Assembly: GCA_015179125.1 (NCBI GenBank) | Contig: WHVA01000545.1 | Coordinates: 1 to 64,000, forward strand | Origin: Gautieria morchelliformis | Lineage: Eukaryota > Basidiomycota > Agaricomycetes > Gomphales > Gomphaceae | Length of the DNA stretch: 64,000 bases | Reading direction: 5' to 3' | Shown here: positions 4,515 through 64,000 of the stretch, in pieces | Layout of the letters: every line of letters starts with the position of its first letter | Position numbering within the stretch: position 1 is the stretch's first letter | Program-made: the position numbers and the translations under genes | Notes under the pieces: generated by a model | Databases searched by the model: none | The model's input: the letters and a program-made list of their open reading frames with translations, nothing else | What the model was told of the DNA's origin: nothing

Positions 4515-5425
4515 GAGGGAGGCAGTGAGAGGAGAAACCTGGGGTGAAAAAAGGTCAAAAAAAGCGAAAATAAAATGAAGAAATAACAATAATAAAAAAA
4601 GGCCAAAAAGCGAAAATTAATGGAAAAGAAGACACACCAGGGGCAGGGAAGGCAGCCAGGAATGGATGGAGGCAAGGAGAGGAGAAACCTGGGGTGAAAA
4701 AAAGTCAAAAAAAGCGAAAATAAATGAAGAAATACCAATAATAAAAAAAGGCCAAAAAAGCGAAAATTAATGGAAAAGAAGACACACCAGGGGCAGGGAA
4801 GCAGCCAGGAATGGATGGAGGCAAGGAGAGGAGAAACCTGGGGTGAAAAAAAGTCAAAAAAAGCGAAAATAAATGAAGAAATACCAATAATAAAAAAAGG
4901 CCAAAAAAGCGAAAATTAATGGAAAAGAAGACACACCAGGGGCAGGGACAGCAGCCAGGAATGGATGGAGGCAAGGAGAGGAGAAACCTGGGGTGAAAAA
5001 GGTCAAAAAAAGCGAAAATAAATGAAGAAATAACAATAATAAAAAAAGGCCAAAAAAGCGAAATTAATGGAAAAGAAGACACACCAGGGGCAGGGACAGC
5101 AGCCAGGAATGGATGGAGGCAAGGAGAGGAGAAACCTGGGTGAAAAAAGGTCAAAAAAAGCGAAAATAAATGAAGAAATAACAATAATAAAAAAAGGCCA
5201 AAAAAGCGAAAATTAATGGAAAAGAAGACACACCAGGGGCAGGGACGACCAGGAATGGATGGAGGCAAGGAGAGGAGAAACCTGGGGTGAAAAAAAGTCA
5301 AAAAAAGCAAAAATAAATGAAGAAATAACAATAATAAAGAAAGGCCAAAAAAGCGAAAATTAATGGAAAAGAAGACACACCAGGGCCAGGGATGACAGCC
5401 AGGAATGGATGGAGGCAAGGAGAGA
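4515..5425 (-). repeat. About six tandem 146-150 bp units in the Helitron copy 1 leader
   Basis: The mark AATGGATGGAGGC recurs at 4661, 4810, 4960, 5108, 5254 and 5404. Read on the element (minus) strand, each unit holds a roughly 50-base pyrimidine-rich block bounded by CAG on its left and GTGTGTC on its right. An AT-rich stretch of about 100 bases follows, with two copies of TTTTCGCTTTTTT, ending in CACCCCAG. Each unit therefore looks like a micro-exon plus a short intron. An analogous array of different unit sequence lies in copy 2 (24940-25760). Confidence 0.85.
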
Positions 5426-19879: not shown

Positions 19880-19999
19880 TGTGAGCGCAGTGATATCTGA
19901 GTTCGGAAGAAGATGAGTATGATTCTTCTTCCGAACTCAGCCGCGTACTGTATAGTACGACGGGCGACTAATGCCCTGACTGCATCACGTGATGCAACA
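19880..19999 (-). repeat. Copia element 1, downstream LTR (120 bp)
   Basis: Bounded by TG and CA on the element strand. It holds two strong palindromes: a 15-bp-stem hairpin at 19898-19939 (TGAGTTCGGAAGAAG and its complement) and the perfect 16-mer TGCATCACGTGATGCA at 19981-19996. Confidence 0.9.
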
Positions 20000-24255: not shown

Positions 24256-24440
24256 TGTGAGCGCAGTGATATCTGAGTTCGGAAGAAGATGAGTATGATT
24301 CTTCTTTATCTCCAAGATACTAACTACTTGCCTGAGTTCGGAAGAAGATGAGTATGATTCTTCTTCCGAACTCAGCCACGTACTGTATCTATAGTATAAA
24401 GTTCTAGGGGGGGCGGTTGTGGGCCTCCCTATATGAAAAC

Positions 24441-36000: not shown

Positions 36001-37155
36001 ACTCGCTTGCTGATGCTGCTTCTCGTTTTCAATATGCCTGTTTATTCCTACTCGCACCATACTTGCCCCACCAGAGCTGCTCGACCAACCCCCAAATCGT
36101 TGGTTTCAAATCCATGCTCACGTCTCCCCGCAAGTTGCATTCTTCCTGTGGCACGGCCTCGCATCCAGCACACGCAAGACCTACAGCACCGGCCAAAAGT
36201 CCTTCCTCGACTTCATCACCCTCCACCCTCATCTCCTCAACAGCGACGGCTCATACCTCCCCGCTAGTAAAACAGCCATCCTCGAATGGGTCGCCCACCT
36301 CGGTTATTCGCGGCGTCTCCTTGCATCCACCATCAAGGCCTACCTCGGACATGTCAAAGCACTCCATGTCGATGCCGATGTCCCCTTTGAGGCTATCGAG
36401 TCACCCCTCGCCCAACGGGTCATACGGGGCATCAAGCGATACTTTGGGGATCGCGCTAGGAAGCCAACCGCCCCTATCACCCTCAGTGTTCTCCGACGAC
36501 TCGTTGCTATTTCAGACCCATCCACTTCCCTGGAGGCCGCAAATGTCGACGCCGCCATCAGACTCGCATTTGCAGGCTTCATGCGTTCCGGGGAATTCAC
36601 AGTTAAAGGGAATAAGTTCAAAGCCTTTGACCCCTCTGCCCATCTTACCAGAGGCTCCATTACCTTCTACCCCACCATTTCCAACCCGGCCTCCATTAGT
36701 GTCACATTCCCTGCCTCGAAAACCGACCCCTTTCGGAAAGGTGTCACCATTTACATCGCTGCCGTCGACTCTCCCACCTGCGCAGTCAAGGCGCTTCAAT
36801 CTCTCTTTGCCGCAGACCCGAGGCTGCCTGACTCCCCTCTCTTCTGCAACACTGATGGCACCCCACTCCAATATGAGGCCTTCGTTGCCAAGCTCCGTAC
36901 ACTCCTGACATCCGCAGGTTTCGACCCCACGATGTTTTCAGGTCACTCTTTCCGTCGTGGCGCCGCCTCATCGGCAGCTCAGGCTGGTTTCACAGAGTAT
37001 GAGATTCAGCAACTTGGACGATGGCGCAGCGATGCCTACAAGCTATACATCGACGCATCCCGTTCCAGGCTGCTTAACCTATCTGCGCGTCTTCATTGGG
37101 CCGTCCCCGATACTCCGCATTTCGAGCCTCCGTCTCTCCTCGTCGCTCCTTGCAT

Positions 37156-37252
37156 GGCTTGAGCACGGCCCAGTTTCACCCTGGCCGCGCAAGAGAGCGG
37201 TGGCGACGCAATAGACCTCTTGCTAGCCCATCACGCACGAGAGACAGAGATG
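37156..37252 (+). repeat. DIRS/Ngaro repeat B1
   Basis: 97 bases from GGCTTGAGCACGG to GACAGAGATG, repeated at 37564-37660 (B2). B1 joins A2 directly, giving the junction GAGATG-ATTCGG that a circular intermediate would carry. Confidence 0.9.
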
Positions 37253-39114: not shown

Positions 39115-39414
39115 TGTTGGGATGAGTAAGCGGGAACGCAGCCGGTGCGTCGGACGCACCGGACAACCAGTAACAAAGACCAGAATAGCCACGGTCATAC
39201 ATGACCGTGGTAGTATATGATACGGACAAGTAGCTACGCACACCTCAGTGAACTCCCCATTCACTGAGGTGCGTATACCCTTCTCTAGAACTAGGCAGAC
39301 CATGCTCACATGTCTTGTAGCTTGTTTGTCTATAGGTACAGTAATACTATACACTCAGTGAACTCCCCATTCACTGAGCTTGTTTGTCTATAGCTACTGC
39401 GCATAACCGCTACA
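39115..39414 (+). repeat. Copia element 2, upstream LTR with four hairpins
   Basis: Bounded by TG and CA. Inverted repeats: CCGGTGCGTC/GACGCACCGG (39142-39162), CCACGGTCAT/ATGACCGTGG (39189-39210), CACCTCAGTGAA/TTCACTGAGGTG (39241-39271) and CTCAGTGAA/TTCACTGAG (about 39354-39379). GCTTGTTTGTCTATAG occurs twice. The downstream LTR at 43814-44113 is the same. Confidence 0.93.
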
Positions 39415-39427
39415 GGTTATGGGCCCC
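39415..39427 (+). promoter_or_regulatory. Primer-binding site of copia element 2
   Basis: GGTTATGGGCCCC, identical to the site of copia element 1 (24243-24255, minus) and complementary to the anticodon arm of initiator tRNA-Met. Confidence 0.75.
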
Positions 39428-42400
39428 GCAGAGCCTACAATGTCCTCCACTAACTCAAAGTCATTTACTGTCCCGAAGCTTGCCCGAGACGGCTCAAATT
39501 GGGTTACCTGGAAGAGCCAGACACTGGCCACGTTGTCGTCGACTCGTGGCGCCAAGCGGCACCTGGAAGGGACCGCCCGGGTTCCTCCTCCGATTCCCAC
39601 TTACCCCACTGGCCACACGCTAACGGAAGAACAGGAGGAGGAGCTGGATGACCTGGAGAAACGATGGGACGACTACAACCAACGTGAGGCCACGATCATG
39701 GCCCAGGTCTTCACCACGGTCCCAGACAGTGTGCTAATCGAAGTACGTAACCTTGCCACTGCAAAAGAGGTATGGGACGCGGTGTGCGCGAAGCACGAGG
39801 CCCGAGCACTCACCATTAAGGTTGATATGCGGCGCCGGATGTACGAGCTAAAATGCGAAGACGATGCTAATGTCCGCACGCACCTGGAATCTCTTATGAG
39901 GATGCAGGAGCAGCTTGCCGGAATGAACGCTAAGCTCACTGACGATGACCTGGTCACGGTCATCCTCGGCTCACTCCCCAAGTCGTATCGCCCGTTGATT
40001 AATGCGATCACGATGTCAGCTGCGCATGCCAAAGCTAAGCTGGAGCCGGACCAGGTCGTGGGGACGCTGATCGACGAGTTCGAGAGGCTTACAATCGAGG
40101 AACGCCAGCTGAAGGCGAGCGAGAACGCGCTCGCAGTAGCTAAGGGCCGCGGGAAGCCCCAGGGCCGCAGCAACAACTCCAGTGGCACAAAAAGTGACGT
40201 AGAATGCTGGAAGTGTGGCAAAAAGGGGCATGTGAAAGCAGAATGTCGGTCTAAAGCTAAGAAGAAGGACGATGACAAAAAGGTGGGTGGATCGGCGAAC
40301 GTAGCAGCGGAAGGTGATGGCTTTGCCTTCACGACGACGCTCGCCGGGACTACACTCGCGCTGGGAACGAGTCTGTCGACGGAACGGGAAGTTGACGTCT
40401 ATGACTCGGGCGCATCAGGCCACATGTCACCGTACCGGCACCGGTTTACCACCTTCAAGGACATCACGCCGCGCGCAATCAATGCCGCGGACAAGACTGT
40501 ATTCAAGGCTACCGGGATAGGCAACATGCGAGTCGAAATCCCAAATGGGAAAACGACGACGCATGTTACCTTGAAGGACGTACTATACTGCCCAAACCTC
40601 GCTTTCACCTTAGTTTCCCTGACGCGCTGTGACGCAGCCGGGTTCACGGTCCTGTTAAAGGACCGGAAATGCTTAATCCGGGACGGGAAGGGGATGCTGC
40701 TCGGACAGGTCCCACTCACGGATGGGCTCTACAAGGTAGAGCGCAAGCCAACGGCGGCGGTGGCGAGTACAACGCGTAAAACACTCACGCTGGATGAACT
40801 GCACCGCCGCATGGGGCACATATCACCACAGACCGCCCGGAAACTCGTCCAGGACGGCACTGTGACTGGACTCGAAGTAGACACAACGAGCCAGGCTACC
40901 TTTTGCACGGCATGTGCGCAAGCGAAGCCGACCCGCAAACCCGTGCCGCAGAAGCGGGAGGGTCCGCGGGCCGCAAAATTCGGCGACAAGGTCCATTCGG
41001 ACGTGTGGGGGCCGGCCAACCCCCAAAGCTATGACGGAAAGGAGTATTTCGTCAGTTTCACTGATGACTATAACCGGTGGACATACCTGGTACCAATAGC
41101 GAAAAAGAGTGACACGTTCGGCTGCTACAAGCAGTACGAAGCGTGGATCGGGACGCAACATGGCGCCAGGGTCAAACGCTTGCAAACAGATCGCGGTGGG
41201 GAGTATCTCTCTGATGCGTTCACAACCCACCTGAAGACAAAAGGCACCGTGCGAAGCCTCACCGTGCATGACACGCCGGAGGAGAATGGCGTGTCAGAGC
41301 GGCTCAACCGGACGCTGTTGGAGCATGCACGGGCAATGCACATTGCAGCCAGCATGCCCAAGTTCCTATGGACCGAGTCAGTCCAGCACGCTGTGTGGTT
41401 GAAAAACCGCACATCAACGCGTGCACTCGACGGCAGGACGCCGTACGAGATGGTACACGGCGTGAAGCCAGACCTCATGGACTTACCGGAATGGGGTGCA
41501 CGGGTCTTCGTCCTCAAGCAGGACACTGGGAAACTGGAGCCGAGGGCAGAGGAAGGGAGATGGGTAGGGTACAGCGACGAGAGCAAAGGGCACAGGGTGT
41601 ACTGGCCCGGGAAACGTCGTGTTACCGTCGAGCGTAACTTGACGTTTGACAGACCAGTCATCCTCACCCCCGCTGACGCGCTGACTGAGGGGGAGACACG
41701 GACCCAAGGCAGTCAGAGCGCCAGCGGCGCCCTGCCCGGGCAACCACCCCCACTCCCTCCAGTCGACCCCACGTGCGACACACGTACCGCAGACCCCCTC
41801 GAAGGGCTCGAGGCCCCGGACCCCATCGCGGACCAGCCCCAGGGCAGGGGCCACCGCACGCGGAAGCCGTCCGCATATGTGCGCGACATCGCGGACGGTG
41901 CGGGGAGCAGCACAGGTCGTGCAAACGCACCCGCATACCCGCGCGGGTTGCCTCTACCCACCGAGCATCGCGCCCTCGCGGTCCTAGAAGAACTGCACGA
42001 GGACGTGGCCGAGGTCAAGGGGGGCACACACGTGCACATGGGCACGTACACACATGCACACGCGTCGCCCTGGTCCACCGCAGATCAGCCCTTCAAGGCC
42101 CTGGTGGAGCCAGGAAAGGACGGCGGCGGGATCGAGGGGGAGACGCGCCCCCTAGACCTCGCGCTGCATGCTGCCAGAGTTGAGGGGGAGATGCGACCCC
42201 CCCCCTTGATTTCCCGCTGGTGGCGGCGGCGACGCAGGGTGCAACAGTCGACCCAATAAGTCTCGCTGACGCACGCTCACGCGAGGACTGGCCCCTCTGG
42301 GACCTGTCCATCAAGCGCGAGCTGGATCAGCATGCGACACTAGGGACCTGGGACCTGGTGGAGCCCCCAGACGGAGTGAACATCGTCGGCAGTAAGCTTG

Positions 42401-43813
42401 TTTTTCACTACAAGCATGACGCGAATGGCAAAGTCATGGCGCACAAAACGAGGCTCGTTGCGCAGGGTTTTTCACAGGCGGAGGGGATAGATTACAACGA
42501 GACCTTCTCCCCCACCGCTAAGCTTTCCGCTATTCGCATAATTGCCGCAATCGCTGTCAGGAACGATTGGGAACTCGAGCAGACCGATATAGACGGTGCA
42601 TACCTTAACGCCCCGATCTCTGAGACTGTCTACATGCGTCAACCAAAGGGGTATGAAGCTCCAGGGAAGGAGCATCATGTCTGTCGCCTAAATCGCGCGA
42701 TCTACGGCCTGAAACAGTCAGGACGAGAGTGGTACGAGATGCTAAGCGGCATCATGTACCGGTTCGGGTTTGCGCGCTGTGAGGTGGAGCACGCTGTATT
42801 CTACAGATACGCTGGTCAGGACGCGCTCATAGTAGCCGTGGACGTGGATGATCTTACGATGGCAGGAAACACGAAGGACGCGGTGCGCAGATTCAAGGAC
42901 GAGTTACGCACCGTGCTCAAGATAAAAGACCTTGGAGACCTGCATTGGCTGCTAGGGATCGAGGTAGTGCGAGACCGCAAGCTACGCACGATCTCACTGT
43001 CTCAGCGAGCGTACATTGACAAAATCCTCGCGAGATTTTACCTACAAAATGCGAACCCGCTGAGCACGCCACTCGACCCCCACCACCGGCTGTCATTATC
43101 CCAATCCCCGTCCACCCCTCGTCAATTTGAGGATATGCGCGGCGTACCATATCGAGAGGCCATCGGCTCTCTGATGTACGCAGCGCTGGGCACCCGCCCT
43201 GACATCTCCTTCGCTGTGTCCTTCCTGGCGCAGTTCATGCAGAACCCAGGAAGGCCACACTGGGAAGCTGTGAAACGGGTTTTTCGTTACCTTAAGGGAA
43301 CGAAAGACATGTGCCTTACCATCGGCGCATCGCGTGGAGGCCTGGAGGCCTTCTCTGACGCCGATTGGGCCTCACAGGAGCACCGGCATTCGATATCCGG
43401 ATATGTATTTACCATCGACGGAGGTGCCATCTCCTGGAGTTCAAAGAAACAGCCCATCGTTGCGTTGTCAACAACGGAAGCTGAATATATCGCAGCGACT
43501 CACGCTGCGAAAGAAGCCCTCTGGATCCGGATGTTCCTCGCTGAAATCACGCGACCGCTCAGGCAACCCATCACCATCCACCTCGACAACGTTTCCGCTA
43601 TATCGATCACCAAGAATGATGAGTACCATCCGCGTACAAAGCACATAGACATACGGTTTCACTTCATACGGCAGGCCGTCGAACAGGGACTCATACACGT
43701 CGACTATGTTCCGACGGATGACATGGCCGCCGATATTTTCACGAAGGCGCTGCCTCGACACAGGGTCCAGCACCTGAGTACGCTACTGGGCCTGCGTTCG
43801 GCTTAAGGGGGAG

Positions 43814-44113
43814 TGTTGGGATGAGTAAGCGGGAACGCAGCCGGTGCGTCGGACGCACCGGACAACCAGTAACAAAGACCAGAATAGCCACGGTCATACA
43901 TGACCGTGGTAGTATATGATACGGACAAGTAGCTACGCACACCTCAGTGAACTCCCCATTCACTGAGGTGCGTATACCCTTCTCTAGAACTAGGCAGACC
44001 ATGCTCACATGTCTTGTAGCTTGTTTGTCTATAGGTACAGTAATACTATACACTCAGTGAACTCCCCATTCACTGAGCTTGTTTGTCTATAGCTACTGCG
44101 CATAACCGCTACA
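43814..44113 (+). repeat. Copia element 2, downstream LTR
   Basis: Identical by eye to 39115-39414. Preceded by the polypurine run AAGGGGGAG and followed by GAAGT. Confidence 0.95.
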
Positions 44114-44118
44114 GAAGT

Positions 44119-50120: not shown

Positions 50121-50389
50121 ATCCTGAACTTGGGAGAGCTCTCTGAACATCATTGAGACTGAAGGGATTTCACTGGTCTACACTGCAGGCATATAAAAGT
50201 TTTCTTGTCTGAAAAACTGCTCAAAAAACTGTAAAGATATTCCAAGTATTTTTAGTGTTTTTTATGTAAAAAAAAAACTATAATAAAATTTTGTGTTTTT
50301 ATTAGAATTTGTTGAGCAAGAAAATTGTAATCCTGAACTTGGGAGAGCTCTCTGAACATCATTGAGACTGAAGGGATTTCACTGGTCTA

Positions 50390-50791
50390 CACTGCAGGCA
50401 TATAAAAGTTTTCTTGTCTGAAAAACTGCTCAAAAAACTGTAAAGATATTCCAAATATTTTTAGTGTTTTTTATGTAAAAAAAAAAACTATAATAAAATT
50501 TTGTGTTTTTATTAGAATTTGTTGAGCAAGAAAATTGTAAAAAAATTCAAAGTTTTTTATCAGGGTTTTTTATGGGTTTCTTTGTGTTTTCACAAAGAAA
50601 CTTATAAAAACACATCAAAAAACCTGCAAAAAACTTTAAAATTTTTTAAAAATTTCTTGCTCAACAAATTCTAACAAAAACACAAAATTTTGTTAAAGTT
50701 TTTTGACATTCAAAACACTAAAAAATTTGGAATATCTTTACAGTTTTTTGAACAGTTTTTCACACCAGAAAATTTTTACATGCCTCCAGTG
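50390..50791. mobile_element. Foldback MITE, CACTG...CAGTG, with a duplicated left half upstream
   Basis: The termini CACTGCAGGCATATAAAA and TTTTTACATGCCTCCAGTG are inverted repeats, and the arms pair over much of the element. The flanks CTA on the left and CTA on the right suggest a 3-bp duplication, which fits the CACTA/Plavaka group. The left half plus 59 bases of flank is tandemly duplicated (50122-50330 and 50331-50539, period 209). The same family occurs at 13483-13840. Confidence 0.75.
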
Positions 50792-50899
50792 CTAGTTCAT
50801 CTAGTAGGGAAAGAATTAGGATTCAGACATTTAGCTCACAATACATCAGACATACCTCTCATGACATCATGGATCGGCGGCAGATGTCTATCATGTGTC

Positions 50900-51089: not shown

Positions 51090-53100
51090 CCTTACAATAC
51101 TGCCAATGGCCGCAAAGCTGTCAAACATAATGGTCAGAATGGACGGAGCGTACAGCTGGGCCGAGAAGCACCACTGCCAGTTTGCAATAGAGAAGTTCAG
51201 GTTAATGGGACTTACCAGACACAGAGAAAGGACCCAGAAAAGCCAAACAAGACGAGACCGGTGGAGAGGCCGTCAATAGCAATAGGCGAGCACGTGGTAA
51301 GCCAACGGCGACGCACAAGTTCCTAGGGGTAATAATGGATCAGGAACTCAGGTTCAAAGACCACGCAAACTATGCACTAAGAAAGGGAGAGGCGTACATA
51401 GGCCAATACAGGAGAATTGCGAAGCCAACGGGGGGCGCTGCAGCTAAGCACATAAGAGCATATTACCTAGTGGTCGCAGTACCGAGAATGTTATACACGG
51501 CTGGCGTGTTTCTTATACCAGCGACAAGGAAAAACAGAGGGACCAAAGGATACATCAACAAACTGGCGCAGATACAGCCCCAAGCAGCGTTGGACATAAC
51601 GGGAGCCCTCAAAACCACAGCTACTGACACGCTAGATGCGTATGTGAACCTACTCCCATTCTCGTTGTTAGTAGCCAAGCAAATACACAGAGCAGCGGTA
51701 AGACTCTCTTGCCTACCTCAGGACCATCCACTCGCAAAGAAAGTCAGCAGGGCTGTGAAGAGATACATGAAACATCACTGGTCGCCGCTACACGAGATCA
51801 TGTACGCCTTCAACCTGGCCCCAGACAGAATGGAGAAAATCCAAACCATTGTGTATGGGCCCAAGTGGGCCCCAGCGTTCAGCATAAGGATACCACAGAC
51901 AAAGGAGAGCGCAATCGCAGAGCACGACACAGAGAGAGCGGAAGTGACGGTATACTCCAATGGATCGAGCATAGAGGGCAACGTAGGGGCAGCGGCAGTC
52001 CTATACAAGAACGGGGTAGAGATGAGAACTGCAAGGCTATATATGGGACCGGACACCGAGCACACAGTCTTTGAGGTGAAGCTGGCCGGGGTGGCCATGG
52101 GAGCAAAGATGCTGAATCAGGAAAGGAGCAAGAGATATGTGATTGTTATAGACAATCAAGCTGCGATCCAGATGACCAGGAGGGAGAGAGATATCCCTGG
52201 GCAGTATCTAGTCAACACGCTACACAGGCAGGTCCAAGGGGTTGTCCAACAGCAGACAGGAGCGGAAGTGGTCATGAGGTGGGTCCCAGGGCATCAAGGG
52301 GTGGAAGGGAACGAGAGGGCAGATGAGGAAGCGAAGAAAGCGGTGAAGGGAGCAACCAGCAAGGAGTGAGACATACCGATCGAGTGCTGGGGAACACTCC
52401 CGACAAGCAGAACAGCCGAGATCCAGAGACACAATGCTGAGCTAAAGCTGGAAGCATGAAGGATGTTTGCTAAGTCACCCAGAGCTCGTTTCACGCATGA
52501 GATTGACCCTACAATGCTGTCAGCAGCATTCGCAAAAATCACAAAGAACATGCCGCGTAAACACACGAGTCTACTTGTGCAACTCAGAACGGGACACGTC
52601 GCACTGAACGGGCACCTCTACAAAATAGACAAAAAGGACTTGCCCATCTGCCCAGCATGCAGGAACGCGAATGAGACTGTACACCACTATTTGTTTCGAT
52701 GCCTGGCCTACAATGAACAGAGGAAGGTACTGAAGAAAAAGCTCGGGAGAGGGGCGGACACCATCAGGACACTGTTGGGAGGGCACAAAACCATGGGGCA
52801 TTTGTTCAGATATATACATGACACTGGTCGGTTTAAAGAACAGTACGGGGATACCTTGCTCCCAGTGGAAGAGAAGAGTGGCTGAAGGGAATGAGCAAGT
52901 GATAGGAAGGGACACGAAGAGCGCGAGAACACACACATCTCGCCAACACAGGCACGGACATGCTCAGGGCTCTTCCCAATGAGTACAAGTGGAGATAGAG
53001 GTCTAAAGGTGAGAAGGGATACGCGGGAAGGAATTTGTATCAACCATCTTACATAGGGTGATGCCCCAAAAGACGTTAAATTGGATAATAATAATAATAA
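51090..53100 (+). mobile_element. 5'-truncated Tad-like LINE with (ATA)n tail
   Basis: Plus strand. RT thumb-type sequence starts at about 51130 in decayed frames, the RNase H and C-terminal zinc knuckle follow, and the element ends with an ATAATAATAATAATAA tail at 53085-53100. The endonuclease and RT core are missing, the usual 5' truncation of LINE insertions. I could not define a target duplication. Confidence 0.8.
51335..52885 (+). pseudogene. LINE ORF2 C-terminal part: RT connection, RNase H, zinc knuckle
   Basis: One frame from 51335 to 52885 is broken by two TGA codons (52367-52369 and 52457-52459). The N-terminal third is the RT connection region (FLGV before the start, then KHIRAYY and LYTAGVF). 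RNase H spans about residues 205-340: VYSNGSS at the first catalytic position, TVFEVKLAG (Glu), VIDNQAA (Asp) and GNERADEEAK (Asp). The first motif normally reads TDGS, so Asp has become Asn and the nuclease is probably inactive. The last 140 residues hold CPAC...HHYLFRC, the zinc knuckle common at LINE C-termini. Both stops are TGA, which is consistent with transition mutations. The copy is dead. Confidence 0.85.
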
Positions 53101-54434
53101 ACTGCCGATGGCCAGGTTGCCCCAGCAAGAGTAGAATCCAGGACATAATTTGTGTACAAGCTTGTATGTATTTGGGCAATGAAATTCTAGAATGGCAGCA
53201 AGACAATGCCTGAGTGTTGAGCTTCATGTGTGACCGTGGGACTACTGCTTGAGTTTCGAGAGCAACCAATATGGATGGGAATTAGGTAAAGCCAAAGCAT
53301 GATGGCCAAGGGAAATCAGAGATCAGTCCAGAGGTAAAAATTTACCTCAGTGGTGTTGTGGGCAATGATATATTAGCAACTCCTGTATGACTGTTTTTAC
53401 TAGACAAAAATTAAACTGAAATTGAAATCACTTAAGTAATCTCCAATGATATTTGGCAATGATCTATCATTTTCTATGATTTGCTATGATTTGCTGTGAT
53501 TTGCTGTGATCTGCCACGACCACCTGTGATTTGCCATCCATGACTAGCTGTAAGTTGCCCTAATTGGCTATGATACTCCCTGGTTCTGCAGGATTGGGGA
53601 TGATTTTGTAGTAAAATTTTATACCCTACATGACATCCTAGGATAATGTGAGATTTGCTAGAATCATCTGAGATTTCATGCAACCCTTCAAGAAATTATC
53701 ATAAGTGATTCTATTTGATTTTGAGAAATATTCAAGGATTGATGTAAGTAGGGCAAATCACATGGGATGTTCTAGTATCTTCACAAATTCTTGGGTATTG
53801 GCTGGGATCTCAGATGATCTTGCCTATGTCAATATCATGACAAATCAGGTGTTATCATTCATTGTGGAATGATTTGAAAGTATCCCATGGGATTGTAAAA
53901 TTTCATGGAATCTCATACCATCCCTTGTGATTTTATAGTATTATGAACAATTATACATGATTACCGGTAACCTCATTCTTCAACCAAGAATATGATTTTG
54001 GAGAACAAACAAAGGATAAAAACTTGATTTTCAGGAACTTTCAGAATCTAACAATTACTGATCGTTCTGGATCTCACCTAGCAGTCCATCACTAGTGTAT
54101 GAAAATTTTCAGCTCTTACTCCTCATCCCATACTATAAGCATTCAACTCTACATGCCCTCACACTATTTCACACCTAGTCTTGCTCTGTTAAAGCCCACA
54201 CTTTGCTTTCTAGCACACCACTTATTTTAACCTCTGACAGTACCAAGACATGTCATATGGCGCATGCAGCACATGTGCTCAGTGTTCACAATATTCACCT
54301 CTCCAACCAGTCTGTCATATACATTACTCTCTTTGACCTCTCTTGTTTACAATAAGATATTTCCTCTAGGCAGTAGATTATCCAAGTTTACATTGCCTCT
54401 GTGGCTGCCTGCCTACTGTTCATATTCTTCTTGA
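53101..54434. other. AT-rich stretch with degenerate TGATTTGC words
   Basis: TGATTTGC-type words recur between about 53440 and 53540, and TGAT-rich wording continues to 54000. The part from 54060 to 54434 is pyrimidine-rich without open frames. No gene is visible. Confidence 0.5.
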
Positions 54435-54439
54435 TACTC
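54435..54439. repeat. Direct repeat TACTC (left), flanking the large inverted-repeat unit
   Basis: TACTC directly precedes the terminal TTACACCC at 54440. The same five bases directly follow the opposite terminus at 62719-62723. Confidence 0.75.
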
Positions 54440-55066
54440 TTACACCCGTTTGCAGTACCTAAGGCACGCGTCGGATTTGCTTCCATTTTAGCGCGCAAAC
54501 TTCGAACAACGATATCTTGCTTGATATCACTCCGATTCGCTTGAAATTTCATATCTGAAGCTATGTGGACCATAGCTAGGGCATAGAACTAAAAAATCCG
54601 AATAAAACAAGCATTTTTTATTTTGCATTTTGGGTGCTGAGGGGGGAACAATGTCAAGCTTAGCTTACTGTATGTAGTTCAATGCAGGTTTTAATTTTGT
54701 TTGCTACTTTGTACTAATGGTGAGAACCCACTACAGGAGAATCTCCAGAAGAGGGTGTCATAGGATTGGAGAGGAAGGGCTTAGCTTCTTCTGACATTGG
54801 ATCAGTGAGATCTGACGGTAGGCGTTCATTCTCGATGTCGGATTTCCTCCTGTGTAGCATAAGCCCCGAAATCTTTGATCCCTTCCGCACCGAGTGCCAA
54901 TGCACCATAAGGCAACTTCGCTGATCCTGGCACGTTCTTGAGCTCGGAAACCGCGGGGGCGCACACGTATGCGGTGGGGTGAGGGGCGCGGAGGTGCTGG
55001 GGTGGGCGAGCTGGTATAGGAGGACGGGGTGGTGGGGGAGCGGGCGGCGGCGGGTGCGGGTGCAGG
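54440..55066 (-). repeat. Left terminal inverted repeat
   Basis: Reverse complement of about 62092-62718 with few differences. The inner part is GC-rich. Reading outwards (minus), it encodes P-Y-G-A-L-A-L-G-A-E-G-I-K-D-F and, in another frame, S-E-E-A-K-P-F-L-S-N-P ending S-H-H at a stop, and the right arm has the same readings. The outer 280 bases are non-coding and AT-rich. Confidence 0.8.
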
Positions 55067-55400
55067 TGTGGGTGCGGGTGTGGGTGTGGGTGCAGGTGCG
55101 GGTGCGGGTGCGGGTTGGGCGGCAACGCGAAGGACGCGGGGGCGGAGGTGGGCGAGCTGGTGTAGGAGGACGGGGTGGTGGGGAAGCGGGCGGCGGTGGG
55201 TGCGGGTGCGGGTGCGGGTGCAGGTACGGGCGCAGGTGTGGGGACGGGTTGGGCGACGACGCGAAGGACGTGGGGGGCGCACGCGTACGCGGCGGAGTGA
55301 GGGGCGCGGAGGTGCTGGGGTGGGCGAGCTGGTGCAGGAGGACGGGGTGGTGGGGGAACGGGCGGCGGCGGGTGCGGGTGCAGGTATGCGTGCCCTGGGA
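55030..55400. repeat. G-rich minisatellite at the inner edge of the left arm
   Basis: Runs of GTGCGG and GGGTGC-type hexamers, plus about three imperfect copies of a longer block with GGGCGAGCTGGT (near 54996, 55150 and 55325). The right arm has only a short version (about 62092-62125), so the left side expanded. The G-runs could form quadruplexes. Confidence 0.75.
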
Positions 55401-55482
55401 CACGAATGTGCCTGGGCCGTGGCGCTCTGCGGGAGTCGAATGGTCAGACACCCTGGTATGAGGAATACAGGCCGGGATACTC

Positions 55483-55719
55483 ATGGAAGTTGGCCACTGG
55501 GGTTATGGGGGAGTTGACAGGGAGCTGCTGGTACTTGACGGCGAGCCTGTGGAGCTAAGCGAAAAGGCGCGATTGAAGAACAGGGTCAGCGGATGCTTCG
55601 AAGCCCGGGGCAAGTTCATATGGAAGATGAGTGCCGAACCAAGAGAGGCTGAAGTGTCTGTGGTGCGTGGTGTTGTCGATGGTGCAGCGCGGCAAGCTGC
55701 CTATTATGAATCGGCATAA
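55483..55719 (+). other. Short ORF of unknown function
   Basis: 78 residues with R-E-L-L-V-L-D-G-E-P-V and E-K-A-R-L-K-N-R-V-S-G-C-F-E, a composition unlike the GC-rich repeat beside it and plausibly real coding sequence, perhaps a terminal exon of a lost gene. It ends with ARQAAYYESA. I do not recognise a domain. Confidence 0.35.
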
Positions 55720-55749
55720 CCCGACCAAGTTCAACTTGCCTTACCAACA

Positions 55750-57434
55750 ATGGGAAATAACAAAAATAAAAGACAGCCCCCCACCAAGTCAACACGAGCA
55801 ATGAAAAAGGTCAAAGAACCTCAGAGGAACTGTTACCTGACATAGCAGGAATTCAGGGCAAAGGTCGGTTTATATATAATGATGCTATTTCAAGCTCACC
55901 AGTTATTTAGAATCTGTTCAAACTACTAGCACTTTTCGACCGCAACGTCAGGTGGCAAAAAAAGTAACTTTTGAAGACTTAGAATCTGAGTCAGGGTCTT
56001 CATATGAGGAAGAGACCCAGCCGGCTCAAAGTGCATCCGAGTCCGAAGCCGAGCCCAACGACCCTAATCGAGACTCAGAGTCTGAAGAGTTAGTAGAGGT
56101 GGCAGTTCCCAAACAGGTAAAGGATATTGATGAACCTGGTATGCCATCATATTTTTCATTTATAATTTGATGCTCATTTCACGGCCTAGTAATTATCTTG
56201 CGTGTTCCAGACGGCACTGAAGCCGAAGGGTTTGTTGAGCGTGTGAAGCTTCCTGCCAATGTCAGTTACAAGAAGGTCGAGGAACGTATCTTCAAAGCGA
56301 TAGGGTGCTATCAAACAGTGAAAAAGATGCCGCACCTAGCTTACCGGCTCAAAGGTGTGCAAGATAAACACCTTTTGAAACTGGCAAAAGAAGAGGACTG
56401 GGACAACCTCAAGGATGATGTGAAGGGCGCTCAGGCAAGGAAGAAAAAGGGCGATGCCAGTGGTGTGGAAGTAGACATCGTTCTGGATGAAAGTGTACGT
56501 GTGCATGTGACTTTGCATGGCAGCCGCATCTGATATTATAAGAATTATAGTACATCGCATCGCTTCGCCATACACTTTCCAGGAAAAGGGACAAAACTGT
56601 GACAAATGCAGCTGGCAGGGGCAAAAAGAAGAAAGCTCGTATTCAGGACTTGAACGCCGATTCTGACACTGAAGGATCTGAGATCGAAGAGCATGGCCTA
56701 CCGACAAAACGGGAAAGGGATTTCATGGAGGCGTTGAAGGCAGAGTATTCAAACTGTGGCAAACCGGCATGTGCTTCAAAAGTCTGCAAACTGAATAAGA
56801 ACGGAGAGCACACGCATTTATCATGGTGCCAACTCCAGTCCTGGGTAACAGCCTTGGTGAGTCCAACCTTTGCATTTATATGTATTACTCGCTGCTAATA
56901 ATGCGAATTTAGGTTTCTAACATTCACGGGGTCACTCTGAAAGTTCCTCCAAACAACGCTCACTTCGAAGATTTCCATTATCGCAAAGACTCTATTCAAA
57001 AAGAGAAGACCGATGAAGGGTCAACCGCGAACCTGCCCGGCGCTGCATTGGGTCTTCAAGGATCATTTCCTATGATGATGTTCCCACCAATTGACTATCG
57101 AATGTTTGCTCAGAACATGGTCCTGAACCGCCCTGTTACTCCAGTCAATCCTGACAAGAGACCGGAACAGTTGACCCCTGCGACTCCCGGTGACATCGCT
57201 TACCCAAGCATCGAAGAGTTTCTTGACGATGTCCGTAATTGGCCTGAGGCTAGGGGGCGGAACATTGACGAATTCAAAGGTAAATTTGAAGCAAACAACG
57301 TTTACTTCCTAAACGAACTGAAGGAGGTGACGGCTGATGTGCTCATGGCCAACATCGGGATGTCATGGGGTGACGCGAATTTCTTCAAAGGAGCGGCTAG
57401 AAAGGCTATAAGGAAGCTTGCTAAGAAGGTGTGA
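55750..57434 (+). CDS. Five-exon gene of unknown function with Cys/His cluster and SAM-like C-terminus
   Basis: Exons: 55750-55809 (starts M-G-N-N-K-N-K-R), 55952-56138, 56211 to about 56493, about 56582-56856 and 56913-57434. All but one splice junction are GT-AG with consistent phase. The junction between exons 3 and 4 does not keep frame with the obvious donor and acceptor, so either a different donor is used or the copy has a frameshift. The N-terminus is basic, then very acidic (Glu/Ser-rich). A middle domain (VERVKLP to about EDWDNLKDDV) looks like a folded ubiquitin-like or PB1-like region by spacing only. A C..C.....H.H cluster precedes SWCQLQSW. The C-terminal 70 residues (YPSIEEFLDDV to AIRKLAKKV) have the pattern of a SAM-like helical bundle. 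Similar proteins are frequent as unannotated genes in agaricomycetes, and their function is unknown. Confidence 0.6.
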
Positions 57435-57735
57435 GAGGGAGGCAAGCAGAATTATGCCAGTAGGACACAATAATTAGATTTACTATATACATCAAAAAGA
57501 ACAATTTAGAGAATTATGGATATTTGAGATCGGCGGCCTTAGTACCGTCTGAGGCAGCGCACGGCACATTATTGGTATTTAACCTTGAGGCCGCTACCAC
57601 CAACACACCGCAAGAATGATGGTTCACTTGTCATGTGACTTGTCCGCATGTTGACAACAGCTCTGCCTCTCAGACTCGCACAACATAGTTCTTTACTTGT
57701 TGTCTGCCTCTAATTCTCGATATTTGTTATTCCAG

Positions 57736-60048
57736 ATGCCATCAACACCGCCCCAATCTCTCAATCTTCCGTTGATGACGAGTACACCATATAGCGCCAG
57801 TTCCAGTAAATCTCATGAATCACACATTCGGACCCAGGATGATTTGAAAAAGCTGATGAAGGGCGAGTTCTCCGGTGCGATATTCGAGAGTAATTCTCTG
57901 CTTGAAGAGTGCTGTCGGGCGGATCAAAAAATTGTCGACGCTGTCCTATCCAAACTGAAACCTGGCGTGTTCTGGGACAGCCCAACCGAGACTTTCAAGG
58001 AATGGCCCAGCCGCACTGGTCCAGAAAGCGCTCATTATGCGCCGTTGGAGTGGTTACTCAACCAGATTCTGTCCATCTCCTCCAAAAAGCTGCCGAATGG
58101 CAATATCCACCGAGGTCTTCAGTTTTACATGAACGGTCGGGAAATGGCTGAAGGACTTGACACAGACTCCCCCCTAAAACCAGACCTTGTTGGTTGTCAG
58201 TCTGTTGGTGAGAGCCGAGGCTCGAAGCCGAAGTTCTCATGGAACGAGGCTGAAATTTGCGTAGAGGTGAAGAATAACTGGCCTGGTTTGATCCTGCAGT
58301 CAAGCACGTACGCGCGCTGTATGTTCACACACCGATTGGATAGACTCTTCGTCACTGTTATCCATTTCAACAACGCAACGATGGGGGTGCGCTTCGGATT
58401 TTATTCTCGCATGGGTCTGGTTGTTACGCCGGAACTTGACCTCTCGAAGGAGGGAGGCTTTAAAGGATTTGTCCGCGGAGTGGTTGGGATTAATTCTTGG
58501 ACCGACACAAACCACGCTGGAATCGATACTACTCATACCATCACAGACATTGCGATTCCCGAGAGGGGTATATTCAAGATTTTGAAAACACTTTGTGACC
58601 GATGTTGCGTTCGCGGACGAGCAACGCGTGTGTATCTTTTGGTCAAGAAGGGTGCATTTTGACGTTTAGAGATCTGGGCCAGTAGTTAACAATTGGGTTT
58701 GAAGATGCAACCGCCACCGATGGTTCTCCCGCTCAACCTTCGTCCACTCACCGGTATAACTTACGAAGTCACCAACCCCCACGTTCTCAGCCTGGAAAAG
58801 AGACTGACAGTCGAGAACCCTTGAGGTTGAGGGAGGCATATCTTTTCTCTTGCCGGACACTGTCATTCTGAAAGATTCATGGCCATTGAAAACCCATAAC
58901 GAAGAAGGCACAATGTTTGGAGCGTTATCGGGCGGATTTGGACTGCCAGACATCCTTGTCTCATACCCTGTCGAGGACGGAATGGATAAGCTCATACCTG
59001 ATGACGCAACGTATTGGCCCGTGTGTGCGCCAGAGCCATACGCCGGGGTTAGGCCTGACGAACGAATACATATGCGATCTGTTTTTGAGACCCGAGGGAC
59101 GTCACTGCGAGCTGCACAAAGTCCTCGATTGCTCATGCGTTGCATAGTGCACGCCATGTTGGGTATGTGAACGAAGGGGGCATCGGACATGATTTACCTA
59201 TAATGGTGATCGACAGGGCATTTTGGGCTGTTTAAGAATGGCTGGTTGCACCGCGACGTAAGCGTCGGGAACGTCATGCTGATGGATGAAGCTGAGCGGC
59301 CGCCTGTGGCAGAGTACGTACCGTCTTTCACATCAGTCCTTTCATTTTTTTATGTTTGCTTCAGTTTTGCCGTGACTCAAGAAGTTACTAGATGTGTGGG
59401 ATTCATATGCGATGGGGACCAGGCGATTCGTTGGATGGATCAGAAGCGGGAATTAGCAAAGCATCGCTCGGTGGGTCTTTAGTTGCTGTGTGCGGCTTGT
59501 GATTTACATGGTTCTAGGGTACGCTGCCTTTCATGTCTCAGGCGCTGATTGTTGCTTGGGACTCTGGAACGCAAGTTGTGCACCAAGTAATTGATGACCT
59601 GGAGTCGTTTATATGGGTTTTACTTTGGTCGATTCTGGAGATTCTGGAGACCAAGGGGGCACTCGGGCGACTAGAACAGAATTACCGTCAAACGATGCTC
59701 TCCGACGAGTTACCTGTGTTACAAGCTAGGGGAAGTTTCCTTGATAGGTTAAAGCAACAGGATGCCGCGAAAAACTTCTCCAAGGGCTTCAAGCCATTCT
59801 CTGAACTCTTGATTCAATGGTTAACGCTTTCTCGGGAGACTGCTCTGGAATGGCTGACACCAGACTTCGTTAAGGTGAACGCCGATGAGTACACTTTACA
59901 GGCCACCAAGCCATACAAGCAGTATGTAATGATTGGGCTTGAATCTCTTTCAGACCTGCCAGAGAGTTGGGATTATGTTAATGAGGGGGAAATGACAGGT
60001 GAAGAGAGAGTCGAGGAGGGGGAAATGACAGGTGAAGAGAGAGGATGA
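57736..60048 (+). CDS. FunK1-type fungal protein kinase, multi-exon, probably damaged
   Basis: Exon 1 from ATG 57736 runs open to 58662. It ends near GRATRVYLLVKK, the usual start of the FunK1 kinase lobe, and contains E-V-K at about residue 176 (CVEVKNNW) in an N-terminal region reminiscent of a nuclease-like fold. The kinase resumes at about 58820 with VILKDSWP (Lys of the ATP site). Three short GT-AG introns follow (59163-59216, 59314-59364, 59471-59517). LHRDVSVGNVML is the catalytic loop, ICDGDQA stands where DFD is usual, and GTLPFMS with DDLESFIWVLLW is the FunK1 signature. The stop is at 60046-60048, after a duplicated GEMTGEER motif. The part between about 58662 and 58820 has stops in all frames and no clear intron, so the gene may be interrupted there. 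The DFD-to-DGD change could weaken catalysis. FunK1 kinases are an expanded agaricomycete family of unclear role. Confidence 0.8.
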
Positions 60049-60259
60049 GCTGGGAAAGACCGCATGTAACGCATATAATATTATGAGATCCTGTAGCCAC
60101 TGTAGGAATTATCACAATACTACGATACTCGACGCACGTAATTGGCCAATGAGTACTTTTTGCACTACTAAGTGTTGTTTACCAATATCATCCATCACAT
60201 TGCAGATAATTTTCAACATTCTGACAACAAAAAAATTACATTACAGTAGTACAACTGCA
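60049..60259. other. Spacer between kinase and transposase genes
   Basis: Convergent 3' ends. I searched it and the stretch at 61466-61700 for terminal inverted repeats of the transposase and found none. Confidence 0.4.
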
Positions 60260-61465
60260 CTACAGATAGCCATAGTCCTTCATCCACCCTCGCGCATGTC
60301 TGCGTGTAATCCGATCCAGTGCCTCATAGAGAAACATGAATAGCTCAGCCCTCTCCTTACTTGCAACACATGCACGGAACTCGGCACCATGACGTCTGAG
60401 GTGAGCTTTGATGAAGGAGAATGATTCTTCGATCGGGTTGAGATCGGGCGAGTACGGCGGAAGATACATCAGTTTGATTCCTCTGCAAATGCAAGATTAG
60501 ACACTAGTGAAAACAGTTTATAATGGTAAAAACCTTTGGGCACATAAGAGTGAGACCTCAGGTATGTGGTGAATGGCGCAGTTATCCATAACAAGAACGC
60601 TCTGTGGTGCCGGGTAAGGGTTCATTACCTCTAAAAGGCCCTTCAGAAACCCAAGGAACTCTGGACCGTCGTATGCCCCTAATTTGATATGGCTATAGAT
60701 GATTCCATCTTGTGAGAGCGCCGGAAGGATTGAAAATCTGAGTGGATATTAGCGATACAATAATGGAGGCCCATGCACAAATCGTTACCTTTCGCCCCTT
60801 TGGAAACGTGCTCGCACTCGAGGCCTACATCCCTTGTAAGCCCATCCCATTAGTCTATACGTTGTGCGAAGGTCAATTGCGCTTTCATCTGTGAAAACCA
60901 AAAGGTCCGGTGGTTCACTACCAATACGAAACTGGAAAGCAGTCCGCGAGGCTTCACAGTGCTCTGCGGCTGCCCGTGAAAGCTGGGTTGGAGACAAATA
61001 TAAAGGTTGTCACTCTTCAAGGATTTAATAACTCACTTTCTTTCTTTGCAAGCCAAGATGTCGAAGCGTCCTCCAGACAGTTGATATACTTACTAAAATA
61101 CCATGCTGCACCTCTAGCTCTTCGACAAGCTCATCGAGGTAAAGATCGGGCGAGCGTTCAAGAAGCGCAAGAAGAAACTGTTATAAAATAAAATAAGCTA
61201 CAGCTAAACACAGACATGAATTACTTACTTCACTCTGAGCTGAGGTCATTTTTGACCCATGAGATAGCCGCTTTGGCTCTGCCACGACGTCTCCAACATC
61301 CCGCCAGAGTTTGATTGTGCGTTGAACTACACATAGTGACATATCGAGGTCAATTGCAATATCGGTTGATTTCTTGTTGAGCTTGAATTTTTGGTGTATA
61401 ACGCGATCCCGCAGATCCTTGCTGTACATGTGACGAACAGGTTTAGGGTTGCCAGGGCGAGGCAT
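60260..61465 (-). CDS. Tc1/mariner-type DD34E transposase, five exons, apparently intact
   Basis: Exons on the minus strand: 61229-61465, 61037-61177, 60789-60982, 60534-60737 and 60260-60482, separated by GT-AG introns of 51, 54, 51 and 51 bp. They sum to 999 bases, 332 residues, with no stop. The N-terminus has a helix-turn-helix region ([10 protein letters not shown], then [17 protein letters not shown]). The catalytic triad is FTDES, VMDN and [11 protein letters not shown] with 34 residues between the second Asp and the Glu (DD34E), typical of IS630/Tc1/mariner and the DDE_3 domain. The length is normal for the family. Start ATG 61465 gives [10 protein letters not shown]. It could cut and paste a TA-targeting element, but no matching terminal repeats were seen around it. 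Four introns are unusual for this group and suggest a resident, host-spliced copy. Confidence 0.85.
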
Positions 61466-62091
61466 ATGAGCGATGGTGTGGGTAGTACATACAAGGAGAA
61501 CGGAAGTTCCCGAAACACACACCCTGACCAAGAATTCTATGACATGAATCGTGCGACAGCATTTTCACCCTTACTCCCAATGCTGAACCCCAACTCAAGT
61601 GTAATTTTCAGGTGTCGAATGGCCACTATCCCGTTTTTATTGGTGAGTTTGCTATTTATGCTTACTTTACATCCTCGCTGAAAGGGCTGTCACGCGTCCC
61701 AACTACAAGTCCACCATTGTGACTTGAAGCGCCCCTTCTACTCATACAAGCACGAGCAGTTCCTTCCTGTCGTCCACCCGCACCCCAACCGACCGCGGCT
61801 CCATCACTCCTACCATCAACACCCTCGCGATGACCACCGCCACGTCCCGCGCCTCCACGCGCTACCGCAACACCAACCGCAGCGACGCCCTCGCACGCTT
61901 CGAGGGCCGCCAGCCCAGTCGTGTCACGTCCACACTCCCGTCCCTCTACCGGCTGCCATTTGGGCCGGTATCCCCCATGTCCCCTGCGTGGAGTCCCCTG
62001 GGTGTCAACGTGTGTCGACACCCCCGCACCCTGCTAACCGTATGCCCAGTCTCCTCACGATGAGCTCCGTGTCGTCCGTGCTGCAATCGCA
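61466..62091 (+). other. GC-rich inner flank of the right arm
   Basis: 61466-61680 shows nothing. From about 61680 a plus-strand frame reads S-R-A-S-T-R-Y-R-N-T-N-R-S-D-A-L-A-R-F-E-G-R, which may be coding but has no recognisable domain. No matching sequence is on the inner side of the left arm. Confidence 0.35.
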
Positions 62092-62718
62092 CCCGCACCC
62101 GCACCCGCCGCCGCCCGCTCCCCCACCACCCCGTCCTCCTATATCAGCTCGCCCACCCCAGCACCTCCACACCCCTCACCCCACCGCATACGTGTGCGCC
62201 CCCGCGGTTTCCGAGCTCAAGAACGTGTCAGGATCGGCGAAGTTGCCTTATGGTGCATTGGCACTCGGTGCGGAAGGGATCAAAGATTTCGGGGCTTATA
62301 CTACACAGGAGGAAATCCGACATCGAGAATGAACGCCTACCGTCAGATCTCACTGATCCAATGTCAGAAGAAGCTAAGCCCTTCCTCTCCAATCCTATGA
62401 CACCCTCTTCTGGAGATTCTCCTGTAGTGGGTTCTCACCATTAGTACAAAGTAGCAAACAAAATTAAAACCTGCATTGAACTACATACAGTAAGCTAAGC
62501 TTGACATTGTTCCCCCCTCAGCACCCAAAATGCAAAATAAAAAATGCTTGTTTTATTCGGATTTTTTAGTTCTATGCCCTAGCTATGGTCCACATAGCTT
62601 CAGATATGAAATTTCAAGCGAATCGGAGCGATATCAAGCAAGATATCGTTGTTCGAAGTTTGCGCGCTAAAACGGAAGCAAATCCGACACGCGCCTTAGG
62701 TACTGCAAACGGGTGTAA
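62092..62718 (+). repeat. Right terminal inverted repeat
   Basis: Reverse complement of 54440-55066. It ends GGTACTGCAAACGGGTGTAA and is followed by TACTC (62719-62723). The outward-reading ORF ends match those of the left arm. Confidence 0.8.
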
Positions 62719-62723
62719 TACTC

Positions 62724-63600
62724 ATTGATGTTGTTCCCTTAGGTGGATGTTCAGATTGACAATAATGTACATTTTTCTAGGATATGTTAGATATCTTTTA
62801 AAATATCATAACTGAATTCGTACTCTATCATTTTGAGCAATTTGTATATTTTGGATATCCTAAAAATTTTTGAATGTTCTGATATTTTAAAAATATGTTT
62901 GTATGTGCTGAAACATAATGTGTAAGATAACAGAGCAATTTCAGATAGGATTTGGATGACTATATGTTAAAAGTATATATGAAGTTTGTTAGATGTACAG
63001 TGATAGAGTGTAGAGGCAACTATGGACCATATGACTATATTGTAGAAGTATATATGAAGCGTGTTAGATGTATGATGACAGAATGGAGAAGCAAGTATGG
63101 ACAATAACTCTACTATATTATTATACATGGTTGATAGATCTGATTAGAAGGTATAGTTAAATTAATATGCATGTATAGTAGGAAGATATATAACTATTGA
63201 TGTTTAGACAATGGGGTATACACCCTTTCCTGGGGGAGCTGCAGACTATGAGATAGATTTTTAGGGTTAGGATTAAGCATCGTTTACAAATTCTGGCAAC
63301 TGTCTCAATTGTGATATATTTTATGAAATATAGATAGATTAGCTATATATACATATATACGATAATTATAAACATCCATCTTACAGGATGCCAGGGTTTC
63401 CAACCTAATCAACTGGTATGATTCCATATTGACCTCTAGCTAGCTTAATCATATAATCATATTGTTTCTGTAATGCAGACTGAACAAATTACTGAGCAGT
63501 CACATTGTATATGTGGTCAGCTTCTCTCTGTACGTGTATGGGGAACCACATCTCCTAGTACTGGCAGGTAAGTTCCTAATTCACATCTATAATAGTTATT
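62724..63600. other. AT-rich stretch without a gene
   Basis: Contains a partly repeated sentence (TATATGAAG(T/C)(T/G)TGTTAGATGTA near 62980 and 63050, period about 74). Two telomere-like TTAGGG units at about 63261-63271 are too few to mean anything. Confidence 0.5.
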
Positions 63601-63626
63601 CAGACCAGACAAATATATATTTCAGG

Positions 63627-64000
63627 ATGGCTTCTCATCAGCCACCATCATCTCTCCCACCATTTACACTTCCACAAGGACTGGTGACAGCAAATCCTAT
63701 CCGTCCCTTTCAACAAGCTCAACTGGCTCAGCCTCAGGCTAGTCAAGGAAATGTAAATCAATGATGTGTAGTCAATGAAGCACATGCCCATTCAGACAAT
63801 CCCTCTGCTGCACATCAAGGTCAAGGGGGTTCTCACACAAGAAATAATTCCCAGCGAGCAGTTAGACACACTTATGAAATTAACCACTCTTGGGCCCTGC
63901 AGCTACCAGATTCTCATCAGTTTTAGCCAAACACCGCTCTGATAGGCTGTCCTAAAACTGGATGCACTCGTCCTGCCAGTGTATTGCCACCATTTTCCAT
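63627..64000 (+). pseudogene. Exon-like ORF start, unassigned, continuing past the window
   Basis: After an acceptor-like TTTCAG, ATG at about 63627 reads M-A-S-H-Q-P-P-S-S-L-P-P-F-T-L-P, with a TGA at about 63762-63764. The same frame continues open afterwards (V-V-N-E-A-H-A-H-S-D-N-P) to about 63925. Proline/glutamine-rich low complexity. It could be the 5' exon of another mobile-element protein. No domain is recognisable. Confidence 0.35.

Follow-up and report, generated by a model that had tools for sequence, protein, structure and literature searches.

A kinase-carrying unit with long inverted arms and a DD34E transposase gene in Gautieria morchelliformis, most likely a cargo-bearing DNA transposon

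Within 64,000 nucleotides of the genome of the basidiomycete Gautieria morchelliformis (contig WHVA01000545.1, positions 1 to 64,000; hereafter the window), positions 54440-62718 hold a unit of 8.3 kb in which two long inverted arms enclose a SAM-like gene, a FunK1 kinase gene and a gene for a DD34E transposase. Because the arms are long, because a short direct duplication lies flush against both of them and because CpG content changes in a step at both ends, arms and interior are most likely one inserted, cargo-bearing DNA transposon, which agrees with what the original prediction had proposed for this DNA. We judge the chances to be about even that this is a long-armed, cargo-bearing DNA transposon of the IS630-Tc1-mariner group which has its own DD34E enzyme and duplicates the dinucleotide TA at insertion.

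Boundaries and probable unity of the insertion

The termini of the unit are exact inverted copies of each other. The 20-base tip TTACACCCGTTTGCAGTACC is found at 54440-54459 on the forward strand and at 62699-62718 on the reverse strand, and with up to three mismatches allowed these are the only two matches in the whole window, compared with none in each of 100 shuffles. The matching arms, previously put at about 620 bp, were measured at 636 bp (54440-55075, forward strand, and 62083-62718, reverse strand) and differ at 14 positions over 636 nt (97.8% identity), with transitions accounting for 13 of the 14 mismatches. These mismatches are clustered at the inner end of the arms (four in bases 1-90, none in 91-418 and ten in 419-636). 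The inner part of the left arm is a G-rich repeat tract; a G-rich unit of 121 bp occurs there three times on the forward strand (54955-55393, with starts at 54955, 55101 and 55273), at the inner end of the arm and beyond, and its later two copies are 74% and 93% identical to the first. TACTC stands directly outside both arms (54435-54439 and 62719-62723), as had been noticed earlier, and forms an apparent target duplication of 5 bp.

As a control within the same window, 74 inverted pairs of at least 18 nt were checked for flush direct duplications of 4 to 10 bp. Such duplications were found beside five of them, and two of these five are the kinase-carrying unit itself at two registers. The other three comprise a 10-bp duplication at 19924/24348 within a 42-base motif present twice in the window, a 7-bp duplication at 39260/43951 within direct long terminal repeats (LTRs) and a chance-like 4-bp duplication at 10084/17574; their arms are never longer than 26 nt. 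Flush duplications next to inverted pairs also have other origins.

Within the arms, the outer 261 bases gave no indication of a hairpin as single-stranded DNA (z = 0.39), and the open reading frames (ORFs) of the arms, inspected for a captured gene piece, had no Pfam match at cut-off. A check for inner direct repeats of the inverted repeat/direct repeat (IR/DR) type returned a 12-nt pair with 92% identity (54470 and 54837) and a 14-nt pair with 86% identity, neither of which corresponds to the tip and both of which are possibly due to chance. A composite transposon, in which each arm would be a complete two-ended repeat, was rejected because the tip does not recur at the inner ends of the arms.

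The CpG observed/expected ratio in blocks of 400 bp is 0.18, 0.09 and 0.15 to the left of the unit (53201-54400) and 0.31, 0.23 and 0.20 to its right (62801-64000), compared with 0.65 to 1.08 in all 19 blocks that lie wholly inside (54801-62400). The outer left arm (0.82), the SAM-like gene (0.79), the kinase gene (0.90) and the transposase gene (0.85) are alike in this respect, and the best-fitting change points of CpG density by likelihood, 54447 and 62711, are the first and the last CpG of the unit. Since arms and genes share a CpG state within CpG-poor surroundings, they most likely arrived jointly, and the insertion is most likely fairly recent relative to these immediate surroundings. 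Farther to the left (51201-53200, a region containing an RNase H frame) the ratio is 0.45 to 0.80, and it varies widely across the window (0.18 to 1.15 per kb); the step therefore dates the insertion only relative to its immediate neighbours. It carries no information on the manner of movement.

Genes between the arms

The transposase gene is located on the reverse strand at 61465-60260 and consists of five exons separated by four GT-AG introns of 51 to 54 nt each, which together encode a stop-free protein of 332 amino acids. This protein matches the Pfam family DDE_3 with an E-value of 4.5e-27, and its catalytic residues are D158, D242 and E277, the spacing between the second aspartate and the glutamate being 34. 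A search of the PDB with the transposase returned six entries, among which Sleeping Beauty, a DD34E Tc1-type enzyme, was the sole transposase, with a weak E-value of 0.081. No second transposase or integrase was detected in a Pfam scan of the 33 stop-to-stop ORFs of at least 80 amino acids in the unit, which the first transposase exon entered as part of the spliced protein.

A nested mariner within the unit was considered and rejected, as two comparisons returned no ends around the transposase gene, although they could miss ends that are badly decayed or contain gaps: local alignment reached a score of 19, against 22 to 27 in the ten highest of 200 shuffles, and the best pair in a TA-anchored comparison had 14 of 28 matches, against 16 to 19 in the ten highest of 60 shuffles. 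Because no inverted repeats were found around its gene, the DD34E transposase is probably the unit's own enzyme. Relatives of the transposase were confirmed neither in viral contigs (one candidate stretch) nor in prokaryotic contigs (48 candidate stretches), and the tip had no match in either set (18 bases in viral and 20 bases in prokaryotic contigs); both results are uninformative on fungi.

The kinase gene lies on the forward strand at 57739-60048. PF17667, the FunK1 family, is matched by four separate ORF pieces in profile order, and the spliced downstream half of the kinase, which contains the motifs VILKDSW, HRDVSVGN (the catalytic loop) and GTLPFMS, matches with an E-value of 3.5e-29. 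Kinases of the HRDLKPEN type have a lysine at the position where HRDVSVGN has a serine. The match to PF17667 and this serine, which fits the signature given for FunK1 in the accessible part of its description (a serine at the eighth active-site position; PMC3203195), place the gene in the FunK1 family. An intron or a frameshift probably lies at approximately 58660-58810; 162 intron combinations bridge the gap arithmetically and none of the 15 inspected was convincing, so that this kinase copy may be frameshifted. For the kinase part, one candidate stretch in viral contigs was not confirmed, which is again uninformative on fungi.

Both enzymes were thus identified as predicted, which cannot be said of the third gene to the same degree. 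This SAM-like gene (forward strand, 55883-57434) has exons at 55883-56138, 56211-56494, 56551-56856 and 56913-57434 that join in frame and include a Cys/His-rich stretch; the gene model has no located start codon or 5' end. No Pfam family matched it at its cut-off. A single-sequence structural model of the last exon was poor overall (predicted local distance difference test score, pLDDT, of 57), with its last 75 residues mostly helical, and the top Foldseek matches of this model were SAM domains (Scm, Ph, PHC3 and Eph receptors) together with helical domains of NusA and RadA, all with E-values above 1. With low confidence, the model may thus have a SAM-like fold, and the label is to be taken as a lead rather than as a result. 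Additional Pfam matches below cut-off within the unit (XAF1_C, 0.0089; TDBD, 0.005; TNFR_ELAPOR1_6th, 0.011) resembled chance matches and were rejected.

Apparent target duplication and proposed transposition mechanism

The left arm begins with TTA followed by CACCCG and the right arm ends with CGGGTG followed by TAA, so that the second and third bases of each arm, counted from its tip, are TA (54441-54442 and 62716-62717). Since TA is palindromic, its duplication would seem to lengthen the inverted repeat by two bases, and the terminus would then read CACCCGTTTGCAGTACC; this is the position at which TA is expected after a mariner-type insertion. The original prediction had argued that a DD34E transposase cannot account for these ends and had concluded on a transposon of an undescribed type, mobilised in trans. 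The first claim is not supported by the position of TA, and the second does not follow, because a TA duplication can hide in the inverted repeat and because a search around the gene of the resident enzyme revealed no terminal repeats.

In the mechanism we favour, the element would move by cut-and-paste: the DD34E transposase encoded by the spliced gene at 60260-61465 would bind the ends of the 636-bp arms, excise the element and reinsert it at another site, and the FunK1 kinase and SAM-like genes would move along as passengers or accessory genes. TA would be duplicated at insertion, the element proper would extend from 54443 to 62715, and TACTC would be coincidental. The analysis establishes a bounded unit, an open transposase gene and the positions of TA and TACTC, together with two features of the IS630-Tc1-mariner group, the D-34-E spacing and inverted repeats which bound the transposase gene with no closer pair found. 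That the transposase acts on these arms and that the duplication is TA is what we infer; the element might still be mobile and the kinase might have a role of its own.

Several observations weigh against this mechanism. Members of this group have a pair of helix-turn-helix (HTH) domains at the N-terminus, but every HTH family that matched the transposase did so below cut-off (HTH_32 with 1.7e-07 and 32.1 bits at a cut-off of 33.7, HTH_Tnp_Tc3_2 with 0.00085), a length of 8.3 kb and two extra genes are unusual for a mariner, and a terminus CACCCG with TA also resembles elements of the CMC type. Only one copy of the unit is known here, and its true ends are therefore not fixed. Moreover, if TA was duplicated, chance must account both for one extra complementary base (T/A) and for the flush TACTC. 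Probabilities for both duplications were computed on the window's own sequence: if TA is the duplication, any flush duplication of 5 to 10 bp outside a TA-flanked element has a chance of 0.0016, and the exact configuration a chance of 0.00027; if the 5 bp are the duplication, the chance of TA in a random terminus is 0.048 for bases 2-3 and 0.14 for any place in the first four bases. By likelihood alone, 5 bp is thus favoured over TA approximately 30- to 90-fold, and by more with the exact configuration.

We nevertheless retain TA as the duplication because no ends belonging to the open DD34E gene itself were found and because the scan of the 33 ORFs showed no other transposase domain, and we discount the likelihood because the finding was selected for showing the coincidence. 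By judgement, TA with the resident enzyme therefore stands at about one half, and a real 5-bp duplication by either enzyme, with ends TTACACCCG, at about one third. A single insertion is insufficient to decide between the two. Open frames across the reconstructed empty site span 2 to 37 codons whichever duplication is assumed and do not discriminate between them; the predicted empty allele is GATACTCATTG with a 5-bp duplication and GATACTCTTAATACTCATTG with a TA duplication.

If TACTC is the real duplication, the resident DD34E transposase might have made it with a staggered cut of 5 bp, and the unit would belong to a DD34E lineage that follows a new target rule. In favour of this, TACTC directly adjoins the maximal inverted repeat, the chance figures (0.048 for TA at bases 2-3 against 0.0016 for TACTC next to a TA duplication) point the same way, the resident transposase is open with no ends of its own found, and a duplication other than TA is known within the IS630-Tc1-mariner group, namely the TATA of Sailor (accessible text of PMC8533490). 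However, only one insertion underlies this explanation, most Tc1/mariner families duplicate TA according to the same text, and literature pairing Tc1-mariner elements with a 5-bp target duplication was scant in the partly accessible sources, amounting to a fission yeast study; we therefore regard it as rather unlikely. Also unlikely is the explanation of the original prediction, a non-autonomous element that is mobilised in trans by another transposase with duplications of 4 to 8 bp, KDZ-like or of an unknown kind, with the DD34E gene as cargo or as a nested remnant. The flush TACTC would fit, and the Cryptococcus elements KDZ2 and KDZ3 are close in anatomy, with terminal inverted repeats (TIRs) of 139 and 169 bp, lengths of 9 to 10 kb and duplications of 4 to 8 bp (PMC12810828, accessible part), yet neither a KDZ or CxC domain nor any other second transposase domain was found in the 33 scanned ORFs, and the DD34E gene, for which no separate ends were found, has kept an open frame, as a remnant would not be expected to.

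The ends of the unit read CACCCG...CGGGTG if TA is the duplication, which would also suit a CMC/EnSpm-type element with CAC...GTG ends, comparable to CNEST or ESTA and moved in trans by a transposase of that type. CNEST is about 7.2 kb long, duplicates TA and has ends that begin with CACGG (PMC12810828, accessible part), and ESTA has TA duplications and belongs to the CMCT clade with mostly CA..TG ends (PMC12730594). With no CMC transposase domain found inside the unit, TIRs of 33 bp in CNEST against 636 bp here, and TACTC again left to coincidence, such an origin appears improbable. Finally, the arrangement might not be a transposon at all; it might be a segmental inverted duplication around ordinary genes, or two separate repeats facing each other by chance. 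There are long open frames within the arms, arms alone could be genomic repeats elsewhere, and the three other inverted pairs with flush duplications of 4 to 10 bp in the window are not such units. Against this stand the inner arm ends without a copy of the outer tip, which means that neither arm forms a full element with two ends of its own, the coincidence of the CpG step with both outer ends and the flush TACTC, which together make an ordinary duplication or chance pairing very improbable.

FunK1 genes as probable transposon cargo

Several fungi have expanded FunK1 families, and in Paracoccidioides FunK1 genes are enriched in non-syntenic regions (PMC3203195, accessible part). A transposon with FunK1 cargo would be a ready vehicle for the spread of FunK1 genes; none is described in the titles and abstract openings of the literature searched, which consisted largely of papers available without subscription. 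A bolder version, which we consider doubtful, is that a basidiomycete transposon with 636-bp arms and 5-bp duplications, moved by a DD34E enzyme departing from the TA rule or by an undescribed enzyme in trans, spreads FunK1 genes. If true, this element would be a physical vehicle for lineage-specific FunK1 expansion, and its 5-bp duplication would mean either an exception to the TA rule among DD34E transposases or the involvement of an enzyme not yet known.

Other elements in the window

The window contains a number of further repeats and mobile elements. Its Helitron, Ty1/copia and reverse transcriptase-plus-recombinase elements, along with the FunK1 gene and the short introns, are in keeping with a basidiomycete genome. 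Near-palindromic AT-rich elements occur at 50181-50791 and 13478-13868; within the former, 50390-50791 has the sequence CACTG...CAGTG between two copies of CTA and resembles a foldback miniature inverted-repeat transposable element of the CACTA type, and the CpG observed/expected ratio in 50401-50800 is 0.00. A Helitron at 27275-31657 has an open frame of 1460 amino acids (PF14214, PIF1), and an inverted partial copy at 1-2959 is 98% identical with its frames split; the CpG ratio over both copies is 0.25 to 0.44 per kb. Adjoining the broken copy is a strongly A-skewed tandem array (4415-5424) in which an imperfect repeat recurs about every 150 bp. A Ty1/copia element at 39115-44114 with two identical LTRs of 301 bp and long open frames (39407-42259 and 42184-43806) was probably inserted very recently. 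At 34293-37162, a reverse transcriptase and a weak RNase H match are followed by a tyrosine-recombinase frame (PF00589), an organisation resembling DIRS/Ngaro elements. The 42-base near-palindrome TGAGTTCGGAAGAAGATGAGTATGATTCTTCTTCCGAACTCA is present in direct orientation at 19898-19939 and 24333-24374, flanking a copia pol region; it possibly lies within copia LTRs and might form a stem-loop.

Comparison with known systems

With DD34E elements of the IS630-Tc1-mariner group the unit shares a DDE_3 transposase with a spacing of 34 residues, TA at both ends and TIRs, and it differs from them in its length of 8.3 kb, two extra genes, arms of 636 bp, the flush TACTC and four transposase introns. 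The apparent ends CACCC..GGGTG are flanked by TTA on the left and TAA on the right, which is not the 3-bp duplication of EnSpm/CACTA elements. Mutator-like elements combine long TIRs with duplications of 9 to 11 bp; the flanks of the unit share only 5 bp, and the Pfam scan returned no Mutator-like element (MULE) domain. The same scan, as Pfam presumably includes KDZ and CxC models, would have been expected to reveal a transposase of the KDZ kind, and neither domain was matched.

According to the accessible text of PMC8533490, mariners are typically 1.3 to 2.5 kb long and most Tc1/mariner elements duplicate TA, while Sailor, a 7-kb element of the IS630-Tc1-mariner superfamily in a fungus, has extra-long TIRs of 1362 bp, a likeness to the unit. 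By its description, Sailor differs in its DD82E spacing and TATA duplication (PMC8533490, accessible text). The Cryptococcus elements KDZ1 to KDZ3 are comparable in length (9 to 11 kb) and in having long TIRs (139 to 241 bp); their duplications are 8 bp in KDZ1 and 4 to 8 bp in KDZ2 and KDZ3, a range that includes the apparent 5 bp of the unit, those of KDZ elements being otherwise 7 to 8 bp (PMC12810828, accessible part). An additional gene (TET/JBP) is found in some families of Kyakuja and Dileera, and Kyakuja elements of Laccaria, with CA..TG ends lacking TIRs and duplications of 7 bp, are unlike the unit (PMC12730594). CNEST would be similar in its CAC.. end and TA, if the ends are so read, and ESTA in its TA (accessible parts of PMC12810828 and PMC12730594). 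The ends of the unit, TTACACCC or CACCCG, correspond neither to those of Plavaka (TGT..ACA or CATCA..TGATG with duplications of 2 to 3 bp) nor to those of IS3EU (TAYGG..CCRTA with duplications of 6 bp) (PMC12730594).

A kinase-carrying transposon as such is not new. In the accessible part of PMC12730594, IS3EU elements of rust fungi are described as DNA transposons with a kinase gene that, as in the unit, is oriented opposite to the transposase gene, the kinase being an alpha-kinase and not a FunK1 kinase; an alpha-kinase gene is likewise present in every IS3EU family described there as having a TET/JBP gene. The long-armed, kinase-carrying DD34E element of G. morchelliformis probably belongs, as a variant, to a transposon group already known.

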